Below, piece by piece: positions 5,646 through 14,534 of a stretch of 64,000 bases of DNA. This DNA comes from Leucobacter tardus (GTDB taxonomy: Bacteria; Actinomycetota; Actinomycetes; Actinomycetales; Microbacteriaceae), in contig NZ_JAGFBF010000005.1 of assembly GCF_017583045.1 (NCBI RefSeq), positions 682,001 through 746,000 of the forward strand, given 5' to 3'. The position numbers were made by a program, and so were the translations under genes. Position 1 is the first letter of the stretch; the number at the start of each line of letters is the position of its first letter. The notes under the pieces were generated by a model. That model had not been told where the DNA came from. It saw only the letters and a program-made list of their open reading frames with translations, and did no database searches.

Positions 5646-5701
5646 GGAACCCCTTCCGTTGCGGACGAGTATAGGGGCTTCCTGCGACGGACCGAATACC
5701 G

Positions 5702-5744
5702 CTGGTCAATTCCAGAAAAATCATATACGATCTCAGATACGTAT
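5702..5744. promoter_or_regulatory. Candidate operator region before the hpa operon
   Basis: The divergent gap holds CTGG-TCAATT-CCAG (5702-5715) and, further on, ATACGA (5725-5730) with the perfect palindrome ATACGTAT (5737-5744), giving two ATACG half-sites 12 bases apart. The position just upstream of the GTG at 5767 suits an operator for the GntR-type regulator encoded at 8935. This is inference from position and symmetry only. Confidence 0.4.
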
Positions 5745-5766
5745 TCATCGAGGAGACGGAGGGCAC

Positions 5767-6552
5767 GTGCTCACCGAAGCGCAGATCGAGACCATCGCCG
5801 ATGAGCTGGTCCGAGCCGATCGCGAACGGACGGTCCTGCCGCGCCTGACGCAGCGGTACCCCGACATGACGATCGACGACTCGTACGCGATCCAGAAGCT
5901 CTGGTCCGATCGTCGGATCGCGAACGGCGCGCGCCTCGTCGGTCACAAGATCGGACTCACCTCGAAAGTCATGCAGGTCGCGACGGGCATCACCGAGCCG
6001 GACTACGGCGTGATCCACGATGACATGGTGGTCGAATCGGGAACAGCGCTCGAATTCGACCGCTTCTCGAACGTGCGCATCGAGGTCGAGCTCGCGTTCG
6101 TCCTGGCGCATCCGCTCGCGGGCCCCGGCGTCACCATCTTCGATGTCCTGAACGCGACGGACTACGTCGTTCCCGCGCTCGAGGTGCTGAACTCGCACCT
6201 CGAGATGGAGGGGCGCACCATCGTCGACACCATCAGCGACAACGCCGCCATGGGTGCCATGGTCATCGGAGGGCGTCCGGTGAGACCGGACGCAGTGGAC
6301 CTGCGGTGGGCATCGGCGCTCCTCTCCCGGAACGAGACGATCGAGGAGTCGGGTGTCGCGGGCGCCGTACTCGGCCACCCGGCGATGGGCGTCGCCTGGC
6401 TCGCGAACAAGCTCGCCCAGCACGGGCAGTCGCTCGACGCCGGCGAGATCATCCTCGCCGGCTCCTTCACCCGGCCGATGTGGGTCGAGCGCGGCGACAC
6501 TATCCACGCCGACTACGGAACGTTGGGAGCGGTGTCATGCCGGTTCGTCTGA
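5767..6552 (+). CDS. hpaH: 2-oxohept-4-ene-1,7-dioate hydratase (HpaH)
   Basis: A 261-residue enzyme that adds water to 2-oxohept-4-ene-1,7-dioate in the homoprotocatechuate meta-cleavage pathway, before aldol cleavage. The sequence has the hydratase/FAH-fold pattern: RLVGHKIGLTSKVMQ near residue 60, RIEVELAFVL (metal-binding Glu residues) near 105, and the terminal ILAGSFTRP followed by DYGTLG. I chose the GTG at 5767 because GGAGGG lies 4 to 9 bases upstream; the open frame continues to 5590 but that part overlaps the divergent gene. It overlaps hpaI by 16 bases. Related 2-hydroxypentadienoate hydratases look similar, but the neighbouring hpaI, hpaE and hpaD decide the assignment. Confidence 0.9.
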   Translation: MLTEAQIETIADELVRADRERTVLPRLTQRYPDMTIDDSYAIQKLWSDRRIANGARLVGHKIGLTSKVMQVATGITEPDYGVIHDDMVVESGTALEFDRFSNVRIEVELAFVLAHPLAGPGVTIFDVLNATDYVVPALEVLNSHLEMEGRTIVDTISDNAAMGAMVIGGRPVRPDAVDLRWASALLSRNETIEESGVAGAVLGHPAMGVAWLANKLAQHGQSLDAGEIILAGSFTRPMWVERGDTIHADYGTLGAVSCRFV

Positions 6553-7388
6553 CCCTCCCCGACCCCTTCGTGACCCGGATCCGCGCCGCCGATCGCCCCC
6601 TGGCCGGACTGTGGGTCTGCTCGGGCAGCCCGGTCGCCGCAGAGATCGTCGCCGGCAGCGGCATCGACTGGGTGCTCCTGGACGCGGAACACTCCCCCAA
6701 CGGTCTCGAGTCGATCCTCGCCCAGTTGCACGCCATGTCGGCGTATCCCGTAGCCCCGGTGGTCAGGCCGCCGTTCGGAGACCCGGTCACCATCAAGCAG
6801 GTGCTCGACCTCGGAGCGCAGAACCTCCTCATCCCGATGGTCGACTCTGCCGAGCACGCCGCAGAGATCGTGCGCGCCGTCCGCTACCCGGGCGGGGCGC
6901 GCGGTGGGGTGCGCGGCGTCGGCTCGGCGCTCGCGCGCTCAGCGCGCTGGAACCGGGTCGACGGCTACCTCGGCCGCGCCGATGACACCATCAGTCTGAC
7001 GGTGCAGATCGAGTCAGCGGCGGCGGTTGCGAACGTGGAGCGCATCGTCGCCGTCGACGGCGTCGACGCCATCTTCGTGGGCCCGTCGGATCTCGCCGCG
7101 TCCATGGGTCACCTCGGCGAGCAGGGACACCCCGACGTGGTCGAGGCGGTGCTGACCGCGATCCGAGCGGCGAACGCCGCGGACGTTCCCGTCGGGGTCA
7201 ACGCCTTCGTCCCCGAGGACGCCGAGCGGTACCTCGATGCCGGCGCGGATTTCGTCGCGGTGGGTGCCGATGTCGCGATCCTCGCCAGGCAGACCGAGGC
7301 GCTCGCCGACCGCTTTACGGCACCGCGCAGTGCCGCATCGGGTGACGCGCCTCCGAACGCGGACACTGCCCCGCGCTCGTCCTACTGA
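6537..7388 (+). CDS. hpaI: 4-hydroxy-2-oxoheptane-1,7-dioate aldolase (HpaI)
   Basis: A 283-residue class II (metal-dependent) aldolase of the HpcH/HpaI family. It splits 4-hydroxy-2-oxoheptane-1,7-dioate into pyruvate and succinate semialdehyde, the last step of the pathway. Visible active-site features are the His of LLDAEHSPN, the Arg of VVRPPFGDP, the metal Glu in QIESAAAV and Asp in FVGPSDLAASMG. The ATG at 6537 has GGGAG about 7 bases upstream and overlaps the end of hpaH. The C-terminal 25 residues are a low-complexity Ala/Pro/Ser tail beyond the catalytic core. The RGVGSALARS segment matches the substrate loop of the family. Confidence 0.92.
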   Translation: MPVRLTLPDPFVTRIRAADRPLAGLWVCSGSPVAAEIVAGSGIDWVLLDAEHSPNGLESILAQLHAMSAYPVAPVVRPPFGDPVTIKQVLDLGAQNLLIPMVDSAEHAAEIVRAVRYPGGARGGVRGVGSALARSARWNRVDGYLGRADDTISLTVQIESAAAVANVERIVAVDGVDAIFVGPSDLAASMGHLGEQGHPDVVEAVLTAIRAANAADVPVGVNAFVPEDAERYLDAGADFVAVGADVAILARQTEALADRFTAPRSAASGDAPPNADTAPRSSY

Positions 7389-7432: not shown

Positions 7433-8938
7433 ATGACCATCGGCATCGAGACGCCAGGCAAGATCATCGCCGTGCACCTGAACTACCCGTCGCGCGCCGC
7501 GCAGCGCGGCCGCACTCCGGCACAACCGTCGTATTTCTTCAAGCCGGCGTCGTCGCTCGCACCGACCGGCAGCACCATCGAGCGTCCCGCCGGGACTGAA
7601 CTGCTCGCGTTCGAAGGCGAGATCGCGATCGTCATCGGTGCTCCGGCGAAGCGGGTCTCCCCCGAAGACGGGTGGGCGCACGTCGCCCGGGTGACCGCAG
7701 CGAACGACTTCGGTCTCTACGATTTGCGGGCCGCCGACAAGGGTTCGAATGTGCGGAACAAGGGCGGAGACGGGTACACCCCGATCGGTCCGGTCGCGAT
7801 CCCGACCGATGGCATCGGCGAGGACGCGTGGCGGGTGCGCACGTGGGTCAACGGTGAGCTCGTCCAGGACGACACCTCCGACACCCTGCTCTTCCCCTTC
7901 GGTCGCCTGGTCGCCGACCTCTCCCAGCACCTGACGCTCGAGACCGGGGATGTGATCCTCACGGGCACGCCGGCCGGATCATCCGTGGTGCTCCCGGGCG
8001 ACGTCGTCGAGGTGGAAGTGGATGCGCCGGATGCGCCGGGGTCCCCCACCACCGGCCGATTGGTCACGACCGTCACGCAGGGCGAAACCCCCTTCGGGGA
8101 CTTCGGCGCGAAGCCCAACGTCGACGACCTGCAGCGGATCGAGGCGTGGGGCAGCGAGGCCGAGCACGCGAACGCGGTCGCCGCGGGCCGGGCGACTCCG
8201 CTCGAGGGCGCACCGGACGGCCCGCTGAGCACGGAGATCCGCGAACAGCTCTCGGGCGTCGCGGTGGCGACGGTGTCGGCGGCGCTGCGCAAGCGCGGCT
8301 ACGTCGACATCTTCATCGACGGCGTCCACCCGAACCATGAGGACGATCGGATTCTGGGCACCGCGAAGACGCTGCGCTTCATTCCCTTCCGCCCGGATCT
8401 CTTCCAGTCCTACGGCGGCGGGTTCAACGCCCAGAAGCGCGCCTTCGACACGGTGAATCCCGGCGAGATCCTCGTCGTGGAGGCACGCGGCGTCCGCGAC
8501 ACCGGCACGGTCGGCGACGTGCTCGCGCTCCGCGCCCAGGTGCGGGGTGCCGCGGGCATCGTCACCGACGGCGGTGTCCGCGACTTCGCCGCGGTGCAGG
8601 AGTTCGACATTCCCGTCTTCTCCCAGGGCGCCCACCCGAGCGTGCTCGGCCGTCGACACGTGCCGTGGGAGACGGACGTCACGATCGGCTGCGGAGGTGC
8701 GGCCGTGCAGCCGGGCGACATCATCTTCGGCGACCACGACGGCGTCATCGTGATCCCGCCTCATCTGCTGGCCGAGGTCGCCGCCGAGGCCGCTGCGCAG
8801 GAGCGCGCGGACGCCTGGATCGCCGAGCAGGTCGCGCAGGGCGCGCCGGTCGACGGCCTTTTCCCGATGAACGCCGAGTGGCGCGCGCGATACGAGGCCG
8901 AGACAACCGCAGAGCCGGATACGAGTGCGACACCGTGA
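7433..8938 (+). CDS. FAH-family domain fused to RraA-like aldolase/decarboxylase domain
   Basis: A 501-residue two-domain protein. Residues about 1-235 are a fumarylacetoacetate hydrolase fold with metal ligands E61-x-E63 and D92 and the NKGGDGYTPIGP loop. Residues about 265-490 are an RraA/HMG-aldolase fold with GDVLA (361-365) and the D379-G-G-V-R383-D384 signature. Its place between hpaI and hpaE suggests it covers the decarboxylation, and perhaps isomerisation, of the C8 ring-cleavage product, a job done in E. coli by HpaG, which has two FAH domains. RraA-fold enzymes include oxaloacetate decarboxylases and aldolases, so both halves could be catalytic. The two halves keep complete signatures. 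Its stop overlaps the next start (GTGA). Confidence 0.88.
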   Translation: MTIGIETPGKIIAVHLNYPSRAAQRGRTPAQPSYFFKPASSLAPTGSTIERPAGTELLAFEGEIAIVIGAPAKRVSPEDGWAHVARVTAANDFGLYDLRAADKGSNVRNKGGDGYTPIGPVAIPTDGIGEDAWRVRTWVNGELVQDDTSDTLLFPFGRLVADLSQHLTLETGDVILTGTPAGSSVVLPGDVVEVEVDAPDAPGSPTTGRLVTTVTQGETPFGDFGAKPNVDDLQRIEAWGSEAEHANAVAAGRATPLEGAPDGPLSTEIREQLSGVAVATVSAALRKRGYVDIFIDGVHPNHEDDRILGTAKTLRFIPFRPDLFQSYGGGFNAQKRAFDTVNPGEILVVEARGVRDTGTVGDVLALRAQVRGAAGIVTDGGVRDFAAVQEFDIPVFSQGAHPSVLGRRHVPWETDVTIGCGGAAVQPGDIIFGDHDGVIVIPPHLLAEVAAEAAAQERADAWIAEQVAQGAPVDGLFPMNAEWRARYEAETTAEPDTSATP

Positions 8939-9672
8939 CCGCCGAATCGAAATCGCAGCGGGCATACCGGGTGCTGCGCGAACGTATCGACGCCGGCACG
9001 GTCGTCCCCGGTTTTCGTCTCGTGCTCGCAACCATCGCCGCAGAGCTCGACATGTCGGTCGTGCCGGTCCGCGAGGCCATTCGGAGACTCGAAGCCGAAG
9101 GGCTCGTCACGTTCGAGCGCAACGTGGGCGCCCAGGTGGCGCTCATCCATGAGACCGAGTACCAGTACACGATGCAGACCCTCGCCCTCGTGGAGGGGTC
9201 GGCCACCGCCCTCGCGGCGCCGAGCATCACCCCCGAGCAGATCGCGCGCGCGCGGGCGATCAACCACACGATGCGGCAGACGCTCACCGATTTCGAGCCG
9301 CACCGCTTCACGGAGCTGAACCTCGAGTTCCACAGCGTGCTGTTCGAGTCCTGCCCGAACCCGCACATCCTCGACCTCGTGCACCGCGGCTGGAATCGGA
9401 TGCGCGTGCTGCGCGATTCCTCGTTCAGCTTCGTGCCCGGCCGCGCGCACGACTCAGTCGATGAGCACGAGCGGATCCTCAAGCTCATCGAGGCCGGCGC
9501 TCCGGCGATCGAGATCGAGCTCTGCGCCCGCGCGCATCGCACGGCGACACTCGACGCCGTGCTCGAGCGGCAGGCGTCAGCGCACGAGACGCAGACGTCC
9601 ACTCACGACACGCAGACGCCACCCGGCTCGCTCGAGCCGCACCAGCAGACCCGCGGCATCGACGCCGCCTGA
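8935..9672 (+). CDS. GntR family (FCD type) transcriptional regulator of the hpa operon
   Basis: A 245-residue DNA-binding regulator. Residues about 5-75 form the winged helix of the GntR family (SQRAYRVLRERIDAG, then SVVPVREAIRRLEAEGLV). Residues 80-220 are an all-helical FCD ligand domain with metal-type His residues in NLEFHSVLFES and ARAHR. The GTG start at 8935 overlaps the preceding stop by 4 bases, so it is translated from the operon and probably regulates it, sensing an aromatic acid or pathway intermediate. The last 25 residues are a Thr/Gln/Pro-rich tail with a repeated T-x-D/E-TQT pattern. Candidate target: the half-sites at 5725-5744. Confidence 0.87.
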   Translation: MTAESKSQRAYRVLRERIDAGTVVPGFRLVLATIAAELDMSVVPVREAIRRLEAEGLVTFERNVGAQVALIHETEYQYTMQTLALVEGSATALAAPSITPEQIARARAINHTMRQTLTDFEPHRFTELNLEFHSVLFESCPNPHILDLVHRGWNRMRVLRDSSFSFVPGRAHDSVDEHERILKLIEAGAPAIEIELCARAHRTATLDAVLERQASAHETQTSTHDTQTPPGSLEPHQQTRGIDAA

Positions 9673-9714: not shown

Positions 9715-11211
9715 ATGACCCAGCACACGCCCGCAGGGCTGCCAGAGAAGATCCAGCACTTCATCGACGGCGCGCTCGTCGACTCGATCGGGGGTGAGAC
9801 CTTCGACGTGCTGAACCCCGTGACGAACGAGACCTACATTCAGGCAGCCGCCGGTCAGCACGCCGATATCGACGCCGCGGTGGCCGCCGCGAAGCGCGCC
9901 TTCGACGAGGGCCCGTGGCCGAAGATGCTGCCGCGCGAGCGATCGCGCGTGCTGCACAGAATCGCCGACATCGTCGAGTCCCGCGACGCCCAGCTCGCCG
10001 AGCTGGAGAGCTTCGATTCCGGCCTCCCGATCACGCAGGCGAAGGGCCAGGCACGTCGTGCGGCCGAGAACTTCCGCTTCTTCGCCGACCTCATCGTCGC
10101 GCAGCACGACGATGCCTTCCAGGTTCCCGGCCGCCAGATGAACTATGTCAACCGGAAGCCGATCGGTGTCGCCGGCCTCATCACGCCGTGGAACACCCCG
10201 TTCATGCTCGAGTCGTGGAAGCTCGGTCCGGCTCTCGCGACCGGCAATACGGTCGTGCTGAAGCCGGCGGAGTTCACGCCGCTGTCGGCGTCGCTCTGGG
10301 CAGAGATCTTCCGGGCGGCCGGGGTGCCTGACGGCGTCTTCAACCTCGTTAACGGACTCGGCGAGGCGGCTGGCGACGCACTCGTGAAGCACCCGGACGT
10401 TCCCCTCATCTCGTTCACCGGAGAAAGCAGCACCGGGCAGCTGATCTTCGCGAACGCGGCGCCGCATCTCAAGGGCCTCTCGATGGAGCTGGGCGGCAAG
10501 AGCCCCGCCGTCGTCTTCGCCGACGCCGACCTCGACTCCGCCATCGACGCGACGGTCTTCGGCGTCTTCAGCCTGAACGGCGAGCGCTGCACGGCGGGCA
10601 GCAGGATCCTCGTACAGCGCGACATCTACGACGAGTTCGTGGAGCGCTACGCGGAGCGCGCCAAGAACGTTGTTGTCGGCGAGCCGTCCGACCCGGCCAC
10701 CGAGGTCGGTGCGCTCGTGCACCCCGAGCACTACGACAAGGTGATGAGCTACGTCGAGATCGGCAAGCAGGAGGGGCGCCTCGTCGCGGGCGGCGGGCGA
10801 CCCGAGGGGTTCGAGCGCGGCAACTACGTCGCACCGACCGTCTTCGCCGATGTCTCCCCCGACGCCCGCATCTTTCAGGAGGAGATCTTCGGGCCCGTCG
10901 TCGCGATCACTCCTTTCGATACCGATGAGGACGCGCTCGCGCTCGCCAACCACACCAAGTACGGCTTGGCCGCCTACATCTGGACCTCCGACCTCAAACG
11001 CGCGCACAACTTCTCCCAGTCGGTCGAGGCCGGCATGGTGTGGCTCAACTCGAACAACGTGCGCGACCTGCGGACCCCGTTCGGCGGGGTGAAGGCGTCG
11101 GGACTCGGGCACGAGGGCGGCTACCGCTCGATCGACTTCTACACCGACCAGCAGGCGGTCCACATCACGCTCAACGAAGCGCACTCGCCGAAGTTCGGCG
11201 CCGGGAAGTAG
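9715..11211 (+). CDS. hpaE: 5-carboxymethyl-2-hydroxymuconate semialdehyde dehydrogenase (HpaE)
   Basis: A 498-residue NAD-dependent aldehyde dehydrogenase that oxidises the ring-cleavage semialdehyde to 5-carboxymethyl-2-hydroxymuconate. The Rossmann region has LITPWNTPFM and the FTGESSTG loop. The general-base Glu is E258 in SMELGGKSP and the nucleophile is C292 in NGERCTAGS. Length and these residues fit the HpaE/HpcC group. GAGGGAG lies about 7 bases before the ATG. It follows the regulator by 42 bases and precedes hpaD by 10 bases, and that context is what separates it from other aldehyde dehydrogenases. Confidence 0.92.
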   Translation: MTQHTPAGLPEKIQHFIDGALVDSIGGETFDVLNPVTNETYIQAAAGQHADIDAAVAAAKRAFDEGPWPKMLPRERSRVLHRIADIVESRDAQLAELESFDSGLPITQAKGQARRAAENFRFFADLIVAQHDDAFQVPGRQMNYVNRKPIGVAGLITPWNTPFMLESWKLGPALATGNTVVLKPAEFTPLSASLWAEIFRAAGVPDGVFNLVNGLGEAAGDALVKHPDVPLISFTGESSTGQLIFANAAPHLKGLSMELGGKSPAVVFADADLDSAIDATVFGVFSLNGERCTAGSRILVQRDIYDEFVERYAERAKNVVVGEPSDPATEVGALVHPEHYDKVMSYVEIGKQEGRLVAGGGRPEGFERGNYVAPTVFADVSPDARIFQEEIFGPVVAITPFDTDEDALALANHTKYGLAAYIWTSDLKRAHNFSQSVEAGMVWLNSNNVRDLRTPFGGVKASGLGHEGGYRSIDFYTDQQAVHITLNEAHSPKFGAGK

Positions 11212-11221
11212 AGGAGCGATC

Positions 11222-12364
11222 ATGACCAAGCTCAATGACGCCGACAAGCAGTCCGCAGGGTTCTGGGTGACACAGGAGGCCCCGATCGTATCGGAGAACC
11301 CGATCCCGAAGGCGACGTCGCCCGCTCCCGACATCCTCCGGTGCGCCTACATGGAGCTCATCGTCACCGATCTCGCCGCCTCGCGCGAGTTCTACGTCGA
11401 CGTGCTCGGGCTGTACGTGACGATGGAGGACGACACGGCGATCTACCTCCGCTCGACCGAGGAGTTCATCCATCACAACCTGATCCTCCGAAAAGGACCG
11501 GTCGCAGCGGTGGCGGCCTTTTCGTACCGGGTGCGCAGCCCCGAGGATCTCGACCTCGCGGTCGCGTTCTACGAGGAGCTCGGGTGCGAGGTGCGCCGCA
11601 ACCCCGACGGCTTCGTGGCGGGCATCGGCGACTCGGTGCGCGTGGTGGATCCGCTCGGGTTCCCGTATGAGTTCTTCTATCAGACCGAGCACACCGAGCG
11701 CATGTCGTGGCGCTACGACCTCCACATTCCCGGCGAACTCGTGCGGCTCGACCACTTCAACCAGATCACCCCAGACGTGCCGCGCGCGGTGGGGTTCATG
11801 CAGAACCTCGGCTTCCGCGTGACGGAGGACATCCAGGATCACGAGGGCACGGTCTACGCCGCCTGGATGCGACGCAAGCCGACGGTGCACGACACCGCGA
11901 TGACCGGTGGCGACGGGCCGCGCATGCACCACGTCTGCTTCGCCACGCACGAGAAGCACAACATCCTCGCGATCTGCGACAAGCTCGGCTCGCTGCGCAG
12001 GTCGGACAGTATCGAGCGCGGTCCCGGCAGGCACGGCGTCTCGAACGCGTTCTACCTCTACCTCCGCGACCCCGACGGGCACCGCGTCGAGATCTACACG
12101 CAGGACTACTACACCGGCGACCCCGACAACCCGGTCGTCACGTGGGACGTGCACGACAACCAGCGCCGCGACTGGTGGGGCAATCCCGTCGTCCCGTCGT
12201 GGTACACCGACGGCTCGCTCGTGCTCGACCTGGACGGGAACCCGCAACCCGTCGTCGCCCGCACCGACGACTCGGAGATGGAGGTCACGATCGGTGCGGA
12301 CGGGTTCTCCTACACCCGGACCGACGGTGAGGAGCAGGGCTTCAAGCTCGGCAACACCTTGTAG
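11222..12364 (+). CDS. hpaD: 3,4-dihydroxyphenylacetate 2,3-dioxygenase (HpaD)
   Basis: A 380-residue type I extradiol dioxygenase that opens the ring of homoprotocatechuate. The metal ligands H178, H237 and E290 and the acid-base H223 and Y280 fall exactly 23 residues after the known positions of the Brevibacterium fuscum enzyme (H155, H214, E267, H200, Y257). The core is closely similar to the Brevibacterium/Arthrobacter HPCD-MndD group. Members of that group use Fe(II) or Mn(II), and the metal cannot be told from the sequence. The N-terminus is about 23 residues longer than in those enzymes. GAGGAG precedes the ATG. The gene ends the operon directly before a strong terminator. Confidence 0.95.
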   Translation: MTKLNDADKQSAGFWVTQEAPIVSENPIPKATSPAPDILRCAYMELIVTDLAASREFYVDVLGLYVTMEDDTAIYLRSTEEFIHHNLILRKGPVAAVAAFSYRVRSPEDLDLAVAFYEELGCEVRRNPDGFVAGIGDSVRVVDPLGFPYEFFYQTEHTERMSWRYDLHIPGELVRLDHFNQITPDVPRAVGFMQNLGFRVTEDIQDHEGTVYAAWMRRKPTVHDTAMTGGDGPRMHHVCFATHEKHNILAICDKLGSLRRSDSIERGPGRHGVSNAFYLYLRDPDGHRVEIYTQDYYTGDPDNPVVTWDVHDNQRRDWWGNPVVPSWYTDGSLVLDLDGNPQPVVARTDDSEMEVTIGADGFSYTRTDGEEQGFKLGNTL

Positions 12365-12372
12365 GGGCGACC

Positions 12373-12414
12373 AGCGGCGTCGGGTCCGGTGCGAACATCG
12401 GACCCGACGCCGCT
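12373..12414. terminator. Bidirectional terminator after hpaD
   Basis: A perfect 16-bp inverted repeat (AGCGGCGTCGGGTCCG, 12373-12388, and its complement 12399-12414) encloses a 10-base loop. It lies between the convergent hpaD and DUF3237 genes, and the right arm covers two bases of the DUF3237 stop codon. There is no T tract, which is common for actinobacterial terminators. Confidence 0.8.
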
Positions 12415-12898
12415 ACGCGACCTCGAACACGTCGACCTGCACGCGATCCGGGAAGCGCTGACCCGCTCCGACGAAGACCCGATCCTCGACCCACGACCAC
12501 GCCCCGCTGCCGATGAGACGGGGAACGCATCGGAAGTAGACGCGTTCCGGGGGCACTGGAAGACCCGCGGCGATCCGCTCGACGTCGGCCGGACTGGCCG
12601 TGCGTACGCCGACGTTCTCGACGATGAGGACCTCGTCGTCCTCGGTCCGGATCGCGTACTTCGCGAGCAGGTCGGTGGCCGTCTCGGATCGGATGACTTG
12701 GAAGTCCGCGCCTGCCGGCAGGATCTCGCCGCGGATCCGCGGCCCCTCGACCGTGCCGCCGGTGATGTGGATGATGCGGTGGCGCTCCGACCCGATGGTC
12801 CCCGTTTCGACGGGAGCGTCCACTCGGATCGTGAGTCGTGCGAAGAACCGCAGCTCCGGCGGCTCAGGCGGTTCCGGTCGGGGTGGATCCTTCGGCAT
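12413..12898 (-). CDS. DUF3237 family protein
   Basis: A 161-residue protein of the DUF3237 (UPF0311) family. It has a proline-rich N-terminus (residues 1-20), then a predicted beta-barrel with the family-like segments HIIHITGGTVEGP-like near 45, RGEILPAGADFQ near 60 and VRTASPADVERI near 105. I chose the ATG at 12898 because AAGGAG stands 6 bases upstream; a GTG at 12919 would include that ribosome-binding site. The biochemical role is not established. It is convergent with hpaD and divergent from the aldehyde dehydrogenase at 13065, so a link to aromatic catabolism is only positional. Confidence 0.75.
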   Translation of the reverse strand: MPKDPPRPEPPEPPELRFFARLTIRVDAPVETGTIGSERHRIIHITGGTVEGPRIRGEILPAGADFQVIRSETATDLLAKYAIRTEDDEVLIVENVGVRTASPADVERIAAGLPVPPERVYFRCVPRLIGSGAWSWVEDRVFVGAGQRFPDRVQVDVFEVA

Positions 12899-13064
12899 CG
12901 ATGCTCCTTCGCACGTCACGGCTGGTTCGCCCGTTCGGGGTCACCCTACACTGAAGGCGTGGCGTCGGAGTCGGGAGGCACTGCGGAGGACCGCCCGACC
13001 GGCACCCTGCACTCAAGGGCGGCCTTAGCGCCCCTGAACCACATCCGCGATTCGAGGAGGAATC

Positions 13065-14534
13065 ATGTCAGATCGCCGCACCGGGCTGGACCCCGAACGT
13101 TGGAACGGACGGCTGTTCACCGATGGCTGGACCACCGGATCCGCAGGCACGACCGACGTACATGAGCCCGCCACCGGGAACGTCCTCGGCCAGGTCGCCC
13201 TCGCGAACGAAGAGGACGTCCTGACGGCAGCGCGGCGCAGCGCCGTCGCACAGCGCGAATGGGCCGCGCAGAAACCGGAAGTCCGCGCCGCCGTGCTGCG
13301 CCGGGCCGGCGCGTTCTTCGGCGATCACGAGGCCGAGTTGGCTGAGTGGATCCAGCGGGAGACCGGCGCCATCGCTCCGAAGGCCGGACTCGAGCTGCAC
13401 GTCGCGGCGAACGAGTGCTTCGATGCCGCCGCGCTTCCCCATCACCGTCACGGCGACGTGCTCGCGTCGGACGGCGACCACTGGTCGTTCGCGCGACGGC
13501 TGCCCGCGGGCGTCGTCGGGGTGATCTCCCCGTTCAACTTCCCGCTCATCCTCTCGATCCGCTCCGTCGCGCCCGCGCTGGCGCTCGGCAACAGCGTGGT
13601 CCTCAAACCGGACCCCCGGACCCCGGTCTCGGGCGGGTACCTCATCGCGCGCGCGTTCGAGGAAGCCGGCCTGCCCGCCGGAGTGCTGCAGGTGCTGCCG
13701 GGCGGCGCCGATGCGGGAGCCGCGCTGACCGAGGCACCGGAGATCGCCGTGGTCTCCTTCACCGGCTCCACCGCGGCGGGGCGCAAGGTCGGCGAAGCCT
13801 GCGGTCGCAACCTGAAGCGCGTCCACCTCGAACTCGGCGGCAACAACGCGCTGGTGGTGCTGCCCGGCGCCGATGTCGCGGCTGCGGCGTCCGCCGGCGC
13901 GTTCGGGTCGTTCCTCCACCAGGGTCAGATCTGCATGACTGCCGGTCGGCACCTGGTGCACGAGTCCATTCGGGACGAGTACGTTGCGGCGCTTCGCGAG
14001 AAGGCCGCGCAGCTGCCGGTCGGCGATCCCTGGGCCGACCAGGCACCGATCGGCCCGATCATCGACGCGGGCCAGCGCGACCATGTGGATCGCATCGTCC
14101 GCGACGCCGAACGGGCGGGCGCGACGATCGAGACCGGTGGCACGTCGGAGGGACTGTTCTACCGCCCGACGGTGCTCTCGAACGTCGCTGTCGACAATCC
14201 CGCGTGGTCCGAAGAGATCTTCGGCCCCGTCGCGCCCGTCATGTCGTTCTCGACCGTGGCGGAGGCCGCGGACATCGTGAACGCGAGCGACTACGGCCTC
14301 TCCGTCGGCATCCTCGGTGATGTCGGCACCGCGATGCAGCTCGCCGACCTCGTGCATTCGGGCAAGGTGCACATCAACGAGCAGACCGTCGCGGACGAGT
14401 CGAACGCGCCATTCGGCGGCGTCGGCGATTCGGGCAATGGATCGCGCTTCGGCGGCTACGACGCCAACATCGAGGCGTTCACCGAGACGCAGTGGCTGAC
14501 GGTGCGCTCCGATATCGCGCCGTACCCCTTCTAG
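13065..14534 (+). CDS. Aldehyde dehydrogenase (benzaldehyde dehydrogenase-like)
   Basis: A 489-residue NAD(P)-dependent aldehyde dehydrogenase. The cofactor region shows VISPFNFPLIL and FTGSTAAGR; the general base is E256 in HLELGGNN and the nucleophile C290 in QGQICMTAG. The ELGGNNALVV and GQICM wording is typical of the benzaldehyde/salicylaldehyde dehydrogenase branch rather than of the HpaE branch. GAGGAGG precedes the ATG. It stands alone, divergent from the DUF3237 gene, so its substrate is not given by context; an aromatic aldehyde is the best guess. Confidence 0.88.
   Translation: MSDRRTGLDPERWNGRLFTDGWTTGSAGTTDVHEPATGNVLGQVALANEEDVLTAARRSAVAQREWAAQKPEVRAAVLRRAGAFFGDHEAELAEWIQRETGAIAPKAGLELHVAANECFDAAALPHHRHGDVLASDGDHWSFARRLPAGVVGVISPFNFPLILSIRSVAPALALGNSVVLKPDPRTPVSGGYLIARAFEEAGLPAGVLQVLPGGADAGAALTEAPEIAVVSFTGSTAAGRKVGEACGRNLKRVHLELGGNNALVVLPGADVAAAASAGAFGSFLHQGQICMTAGRHLVHESIRDEYVAALREKAAQLPVGDPWADQAPIGPIIDAGQRDHVDRIVRDAERAGATIETGGTSEGLFYRPTVLSNVAVDNPAWSEEIFGPVAPVMSFSTVAEAADIVNASDYGLSVGILGDVGTAMQLADLVHSGKVHINEQTVADESNAPFGGVGDSGNGSRFGGYDANIEAFTETQWLTVRSDIAPYPF

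Follow-up and report, generated by a model that had tools for sequence, protein, structure and literature searches.

The homoprotocatechuate operon of Leucobacter tardus carries, in the place of HpaG, a gene for a 501-amino-acid protein in which a fumarylacetoacetate hydrolase (FAH) domain is followed by an RraA-like domain, and this fusion locus is the standard homoprotocatechuate arrangement in actinobacteria. Judging from sequence comparisons and gene context, the single fusion protein very probably converts 5-carboxymethyl-2-hydroxymuconate (CHM) to 2-oxohept-3-enedioate (OHED), thus covering the steps performed by HpaF, HpaG1 and HpaG2 elsewhere. The FAH-RraA architecture is not new: it already constitutes an unnamed NCBIfam family without an assigned reaction, of which the fusion is a real and widespread member. 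A search of open-licence papers retrieved no study of an FAH-RraA fusion.

The Homoprotocatechuate Operon of Leucobacter tardus

The window, i.e., the whole 64,000-nucleotide stretch that was analyzed (G000:C5:682001-746000), lies within a 2.95-Mb assembly rated 100% complete. Coordinates given below are those of the window, and all features are on the forward (+) strand unless stated otherwise. The genes are arranged in the order HpaH, HpaI-like aldolase, fusion, GntR, HpaE and HpaD. The hydratase gene hpaH (5665..6552) scored 365 bits with TIGR02312 (cut-off 351.5); the match lies within residues 35-295, and the true start is probably located downstream of the start of the frame. The next gene (6534..7388) codes for an HpaI-like class II aldolase, for which TIGR02311 is the best family, though at 305 bits it stays below the cut-off of 369. 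The fusion gene (7433..8938) is a single open frame whose TGA stop codon is overlapped by the GTG start codon (GTGA) of a gene for a GntR/FCD regulator (8935..9672), recognized by a Pfam-level match. The products of the two genes that follow, hpaE (CHMS dehydrogenase, 9715..11211) and hpaD (vicinal-oxygen-chelate-type homoprotocatechuate 2,3-dioxygenase, 11222..12364), scored 666 bits with TIGR02299 (cut-off 638) and 424 bits with TIGR02295 (cut-off 321), respectively. Thus, of the four genes that a first-pass annotation of the same DNA had listed as present, hpaD, hpaE and hpaH are assigned above cut-off and hpaI by best family only. Further downstream, an aldehyde dehydrogenase gene (13065..14534), possibly that of succinic semialdehyde dehydrogenase, exceeded no equivalog cut-off. 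A DUF3237 gene on the opposite strand (12413-12919, -) separates hpaD from the aldehyde dehydrogenase gene; since it had no match in the other loci searched (tblastn, 1e-8), it falls outside the conserved cluster.

No HpaB-type 4-hydroxyphenylacetate hydroxylase (PF03241) was found in the whole genome. The TC1 and Rhodococcus clusters contain a PheA/TfdB-type or FAD-binding monooxygenase in place of the HpaB type.

The first-pass annotation had also noted the lack of HpaF in the operon and had suggested looking for it in the rest of the genome and surveying other genomes for the fusion and the absence of hpaF. Both searches agree with it. In the whole 2.95-Mb assembly, PF02962 (HpaF) had no match at E<=1. 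When seven HpaF proteins of other operons were used as tblastn queries, their own seven loci were recovered and no fusion locus was. Low sensitivity was rejected as an explanation, the seven diverse queries having also recovered weak PF02962 genes of other actinobacteria. Two genes of the 4-oxalocrotonate tautomerase (4-OT) family (PF01361), which are not HpaF, are present, unlinked, elsewhere in the genome; they are possible stand-ins for HpaF. An HpaE-like dehydrogenase gene is directly followed by a 4-OT family gene (239875) at G000:C1:238399-240027.

Distribution of the Fusion

In a survey of 296 genomes drawn from the class, the fusion scored over its cut-off in 20 genomes (spread, by the tool's labeling, over 11 genera and 7 families), and hpaE scored over its cut-off in the identical 20, a co-occurrence not corrected for ancestry. 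None of the 20 carries the HpaG C-lobe (TIGR02303) over cut-off. Among the 69 fusion loci that have 5.9 kb or more of sequence on either side (the window excluded), HpaE was found in 69, GntR and HpaD in 68 each, and HpaH and HpaI in 67 each; with the fusion adjoining hpaE in 69/69 loci, the arrangement is not due to chance. No separate HpaG-like FAH gene was seen beside the fusion (0/69), and on these counts the idea that another FAH or HpaG gene lies unnoticed near the operon was rejected. Among plasmid records, the window's HpaE had four matches at E<=1e-150, and exactly these four also contain the fusion (at least 80% of the length covered). Since the same 20 genomes carry hpaE and the fusion and none has a classical HpaG over cut-off, the conclusion that the fusion stands in for HpaG is supported.

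HpaF (PF02962) was over cut-off in 19 of the 296 genomes. Among the 20 fusion genomes, G208 alone has it, as an unlinked gene located on a contig other than that of the fusion. In 35 further fusion genomes, hand-picked from 80 loci (they may repeat species of the 296 set; E. coli, L121, was left out), none carried HpaF over cut-off, which brings the count to 1 of 55 (20 + 35). PF01361 matches (E<=0.01) were present in 12 of the 20 fusion genomes and absent from eight, and these eight also had no PF02962 match over cut-off. The fusion probably stands in for HpaF as well.

Classical operons, with HpaG1 and HpaG2 or a double HpaG plus HpaF, were found in E. coli, Pseudomonas, Paraburkholderia, Klebsiella, Sphingobium and Azotobacter. 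Vitreoscilla differs in having the G1 and G2 genes without an adjoining HpaF, and Deinococcus in having a single HpaG2-type FAH gene together with HpaF. Plasmid pTC2 of strain TC1 carries the fusion with hpaE, a hydratase and an aldolase and has no annotated HpaF. The TC1 fusion (Paenarthrobacter, L124 9013-10425) is labeled "putative Dimethylmenaquinone methyltransferase", a misleading name derived from its RraA half. A. aurescens TC1 is described as the closest sequenced relative of Arthrobacter sp. Rue61a, which uses 4-hydroxyphenylacetate, homoprotocatechuate and tyrosine for growth (PMC3534580). In the homoprotocatechuate cluster of Rhodococcus ruber Chol-4, the available part of the published description names an annotated 4-oxalocrotonate tautomerase and no fusion (PMC6498646), so the pattern need not hold for every actinobacterial cluster so named.

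A second type of operon was seen at seven loci (L131, L132, L133, L136, L139, L140 and L127) from six genomes or records (G208, with two loci, G233, G019, G183, G291 and Embleya). Here, neither HpaH nor HpaI adjoins the fusion, and a DapA-family gene separates the fusion, or its GntR gene, from HpaE. Two of the DapA proteins had their best match in TIGR02313, "HpaI-NOT-DapA", without reaching its cut-off of 397 (350 and 356 bits). A search of whole genomes for HpaH gave nothing at E<=1e-30 in G208, G019 and G291, a match under cut-off in G183 and an unlinked match over cut-off in G233. With no HpaH match in three of the genomes with DapA operons, hydratase and aldolase activity may be combined in the DapA-type enzyme.

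Two Conserved Domains

The fusion scored 797.3 bits (cut-off 444) with NF009399/PRK12764, a 501-position model named "fumarylacetoacetate hydrolase family protein", over residues 6-494; the match is full length, the order of the two domains is the same, and no difference was found. One FAA_hydrolase domain (residues 10-214, 7460..8074; Pfam E 1.9e-48) and one RraA-like domain (residues 279-440, 8267..8752; Pfam E 2.2e-32) were detected, which bears out the first-pass description of an FAH domain followed by an RraA/HMG-aldolase domain rather than a double FAH protein. An AlphaFold model was built from a 31-sequence alignment; with a mean pLDDT of 82.5 and a pTM of 0.52, the packing of the domains is uncertain. 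Residues 1-217 of the model match Thermus HpcE (1wzo; Z 25.5, rmsd 1.8, 196 aligned), residues 260-469 match Streptomyces RraAS2 (5x15; Z 24.6, rmsd 2.2, 198 aligned), and residues 263-482 match the Pseudomonas putida HMG/CHA aldolase (3noj; Z 20.9, rmsd 2.5, 201 aligned).

In an alignment of 104 fusion rows, which are not independent (a single genus supplies many of them, and L100 and L107 come from the same genome), 78 of the 223 columns of the FAH half and 61 of the 228 of the RraA half are near-invariant, as against 1 of the 32 of the linker. The window itself (L095) was removed before counting, and one row (L102) is cut and has no N-terminus. On this alignment, both halves are under strong constraint, and the linker is not.

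The FAH Half

The FAH half has the features of its superfamily, that is, the fold match to 1wzo and the metal ligands E-x-E...D. The metal ligands E61, E63 and D92 lie with the lysine K110 at 7613..7762, a second lysine, K37, is located further upstream, and all five residues are invariant in up to 104 fusion rows. In a phmmer alignment, the three ligands map onto what we take to be E276, E278 and D307 of HpaG. The His-Glu dyad that FAHD1 and HpaG2 carry in the lid helix is replaced by R21 and Q24 (7493..7504). The position of the dyad His is Arg in 103/103 fusion rows that cover it, and the second dyad position is Gln in 100 rows and Glu in three (rows of G208 and G233). In FAHD1, the dyad is given as His30-Glu33 (PMC8398924).

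A comparison of 42 rows showed the dyad His in 8/8 HpaG2-type proteins and Arg in its place in 13/13 fusions and in 14/14 FAH-only relatives; HpaG1 lobes are without the E-x-E metal ligands. In a midpoint-rooted tree, in which the program flagged long branches, the fusions form a clade (100/100) whose sister group consists of FAH-only proteins (100/98 for the joint branch); the two clades lie closer to HpaG2 than to HpaG1. Derivation of the FAH half from the metal-less HpaG1 lobe, suggested by the likeness of NHRSQ to NHRSR, was therefore rejected, since the tree places the fusion and the FAH-only proteins on the HpaG2 side. The fusion stays below the cut-offs of the HpaG models (TIGR02303, 130.8/276.4; TIGR02305, 89.3/228.65; PRK15203, 116.7/811 bits). 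It resembles E. coli HpaG/HpcE (PRK15203; TIGR02303 plus TIGR02305) in adjoining hpaE and in having an FAH domain whose metal ligands are identical, but differs in having one FAH domain instead of two, Arg for the dyad His, and RraA as its second half.

The FAH-only relatives (L128, L130, L160-L167 and L172) have Arg at the position of the dyad His and keep the Glu. Most of them adjoin an HpaE-like dehydrogenase and a class III HpaD_Fe-like dioxygenase; these clusters appear to belong to a ring-cleavage pathway. No RraA gene was seen beside the 14 FAH-only genes viewed, of which L129, L161 and L173 show part of the cluster only. Locus L130 also contains a P450 gene, and a neighboring frame resembles glutamine synthetase by eye.

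The RraA Half

The RraA half contains the D-x20-RD motif of class II pyruvate aldolases/oxaloacetate decarboxylases (D362-x20-R383-D384, 8516..8584), and D362, R383 and D384 are invariant in 104/104 fusion rows. The DGGVRD sequence that the first reading had called intact corresponds to residues 379-384 and is indeed so. The motif aligns with that of the HMG/CHA aldolase holding Arg123 and Asp124 (PMC5065237). With 239 bits, the RraA half is over the cut-off (208) of PRK08245, an RraA-like subfamily labeled hypothetical. It shares with the HMG/CHA aldolase LigK/PcmE/GalC (3noj) the fold and the D-x20-RD motif, but scores far under the cut-offs of the corresponding models (TIGR02798, 82.9/304.5; PRK09262, 91.4/179 bits), is fused, and has other loop residues. 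It is also under the cut-offs of the RNase E regulator models PRK09372 (60.1/136 bits), TIGR01935 (55.7/123.8 bits) and TIGR02998 (28.4/241.25 bits). Taken by its residues, the RraA half looks catalytic. Stand-alone RraA relatives from Rhizobium, Gemmobacter and four actinobacterial genomes have no adjoining FAH partner and thus provide no split-gene evidence for the fusion.

Proposed Function and Alternatives

In the classical pathway, as described in a published study, CHMI (HpaF) tautomerizes CHM to OPET, and decarboxylation of OPET to HHDD/OHED is then carried out by OPETD (HpaG2), complexed with HHDDI (HpaG1); OPETD alone was a poor decarboxylase and required HHDDI (PMC12718150). The same source reports that CHM isomerization is spontaneous too and that decarboxylation without CHMI proceeds, more slowly, in Acinetobacter (PMC12718150). 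Given these steps, the fusion must cover at least the conversion of OPET to OHED and may cover that of CHM to OHED. What is missing here is HpaF, HpaG1 and the His of HpaG2. The first-pass annotation had taken the loss of HpaF as a sign that decarboxylation may have moved to the RraA half, leaving the FAH half to isomerize. Since HpaF is the CHM tautomerase and decarboxylation is the task of HpaG (PMC12718150), loss of HpaF alone says nothing about decarboxylation, and the argument was misdirected. The mechanism itself is plausible and now better supported, as it fits the HpaG place of the fusion, the lack of HpaF in nearly all fusion genomes, the catalytic appearance of the RraA half and the loss of the dyad His from the FAH half.

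According to this mechanism, the FAH half, with its metal, its lysine relay and Arg for the dyad His, would perform enol-keto tautomerization/isomerization, and the RraA half, with its intact metal/Arg enolate site, would decarboxylate OPET via a stabilized dienolate. We infer this division of labor from the FAH half, where the relay is retained and the His lost, and from the decarboxylase activity of RraA-fold enzymes. FAHD proteins are reported to tautomerize oxaloacetate efficiently and to be very poor at decarboxylation (PMC10825186). For the proton transfer of tautomerization, a Lys-Asp relay has been put forward, and for hydrolysis and enolate quenching a water held by H30-E33 (PMC7115867). 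The HMG/CHA aldolase is described as decarboxylating oxaloacetate and as needing Arg123, with a pyruvate enolate stabilized at the metal (PMC5065237). An RraA-family protein with dehydratase/decarboxylase activity, FlDet, is on record (PMC8563752). It is comparable as an RraA-family decarboxylase acting on a 2-oxo diacid; it differs in belonging to another pathway, alginate catabolism, and is likened here by description (PMC8563752). We give the division of labor an about even chance. Both the tree and the profile scores place the FAH half closer to HpaG2, which is the decarboxylase lobe, than to HpaG1, and its FAH-only sisters share the Arg with no RraA found beside the genes viewed; both points weigh against it, as do the Glu at the second dyad position in three fusion rows and the two 4-OT genes of the L. 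tardus genome. Deinococcus, with one HpaG2-type FAH and HpaF, indicates that one FAH domain may suffice, and since CHM isomerizes spontaneously and decarboxylation occurs without CHMI (PMC12718150), HpaF need not be replaced.

Several of these observations, namely the closeness to HpaG2 with the metal ligands kept, the Deinococcus pair, the FAH-only sisters without RraA and the decarboxylation reported without CHMI (PMC12718150), favor an FAH half that isomerizes and decarboxylates alone, CHM tautomerization being spontaneous or due to an unrelated enzyme and the RraA half serving another substrate or oxaloacetate-like by-products. We consider this unlikely, though worth keeping in mind: the His kept in all eight HpaG2-type proteins is Arg in the fusion, OPETD needed HHDDI (PMC12718150), for which no counterpart was seen here, and the RraA half is never lost and has an invariant active site. 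Reversed roles, with the RraA half as the tautomerase replacing HpaF and the FAH half as the decarboxylase, would explain why the absence of HpaF tracks the presence of RraA, and class II pyruvate aldolases exchange enolate C3 protons, the HMG/CHA aldolase catalyzing proton exchange of pyruvate (PMC5065237); against this stand the loss of the His from the FAH half and the better documentation of FAH folds as tautomerases (PMC10825186), which make the reversal improbable. As the first-pass annotation had allowed, the RraA half may instead extend the pathway to another substrate.

The nearest enzymatically characterized fold relative among the matches listed, the HMG/CHA aldolase 3noj, acts on 4-hydroxy-2-oxo acids, and the RraA half could on this ground be a second retro-aldolase for 4-hydroxy-2-oxoheptanedioate. 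This is very improbable, an aldolase gene being already present (HpaI-like in 67/69 loci, or DapA-type in the seven loci of the second operon type); since the fusion is retained with both types, the RraA half was rejected as the aldolase of the pathway. A catalytically idle RraA half, acting as an RNA decay regulator or oligomer holder in the manner of E. coli RraA and Streptomyces RraAS2, whose structure titles describe them as RNase E/ES inhibitors, is hardly credible given three invariant active-site residues and scores below every RNase E regulator cut-off.

We retain, tentatively and at somewhat less than even odds, the specific proposal that a dyad-less FAH domain acting as a metal-dependent tautomerase and an RraA domain acting as a vinylogous OPET decarboxylase have together displaced HpaF, HpaG1 and HpaG2 in actinobacteria; in the literature searched, we found no report of vinylogous OPET decarboxylation by an RraA fold. 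Many homoprotocatechuate-degrading actinobacteria have this one two-domain protein where other bacteria have two or three individual enzymes. If the proposal is true, a part of a textbook pathway that is unassigned throughout this bacterial class would be accounted for, and the misleading label of the TC1 protein would be replaced. The two halves, if they do split tautomerization and decarboxylation between them, would make a clean system for studying the role of the FAH His-Glu dyad, and RraA-fold proteins, most of which are named after RNA decay, would gain a concrete catabolic reaction.
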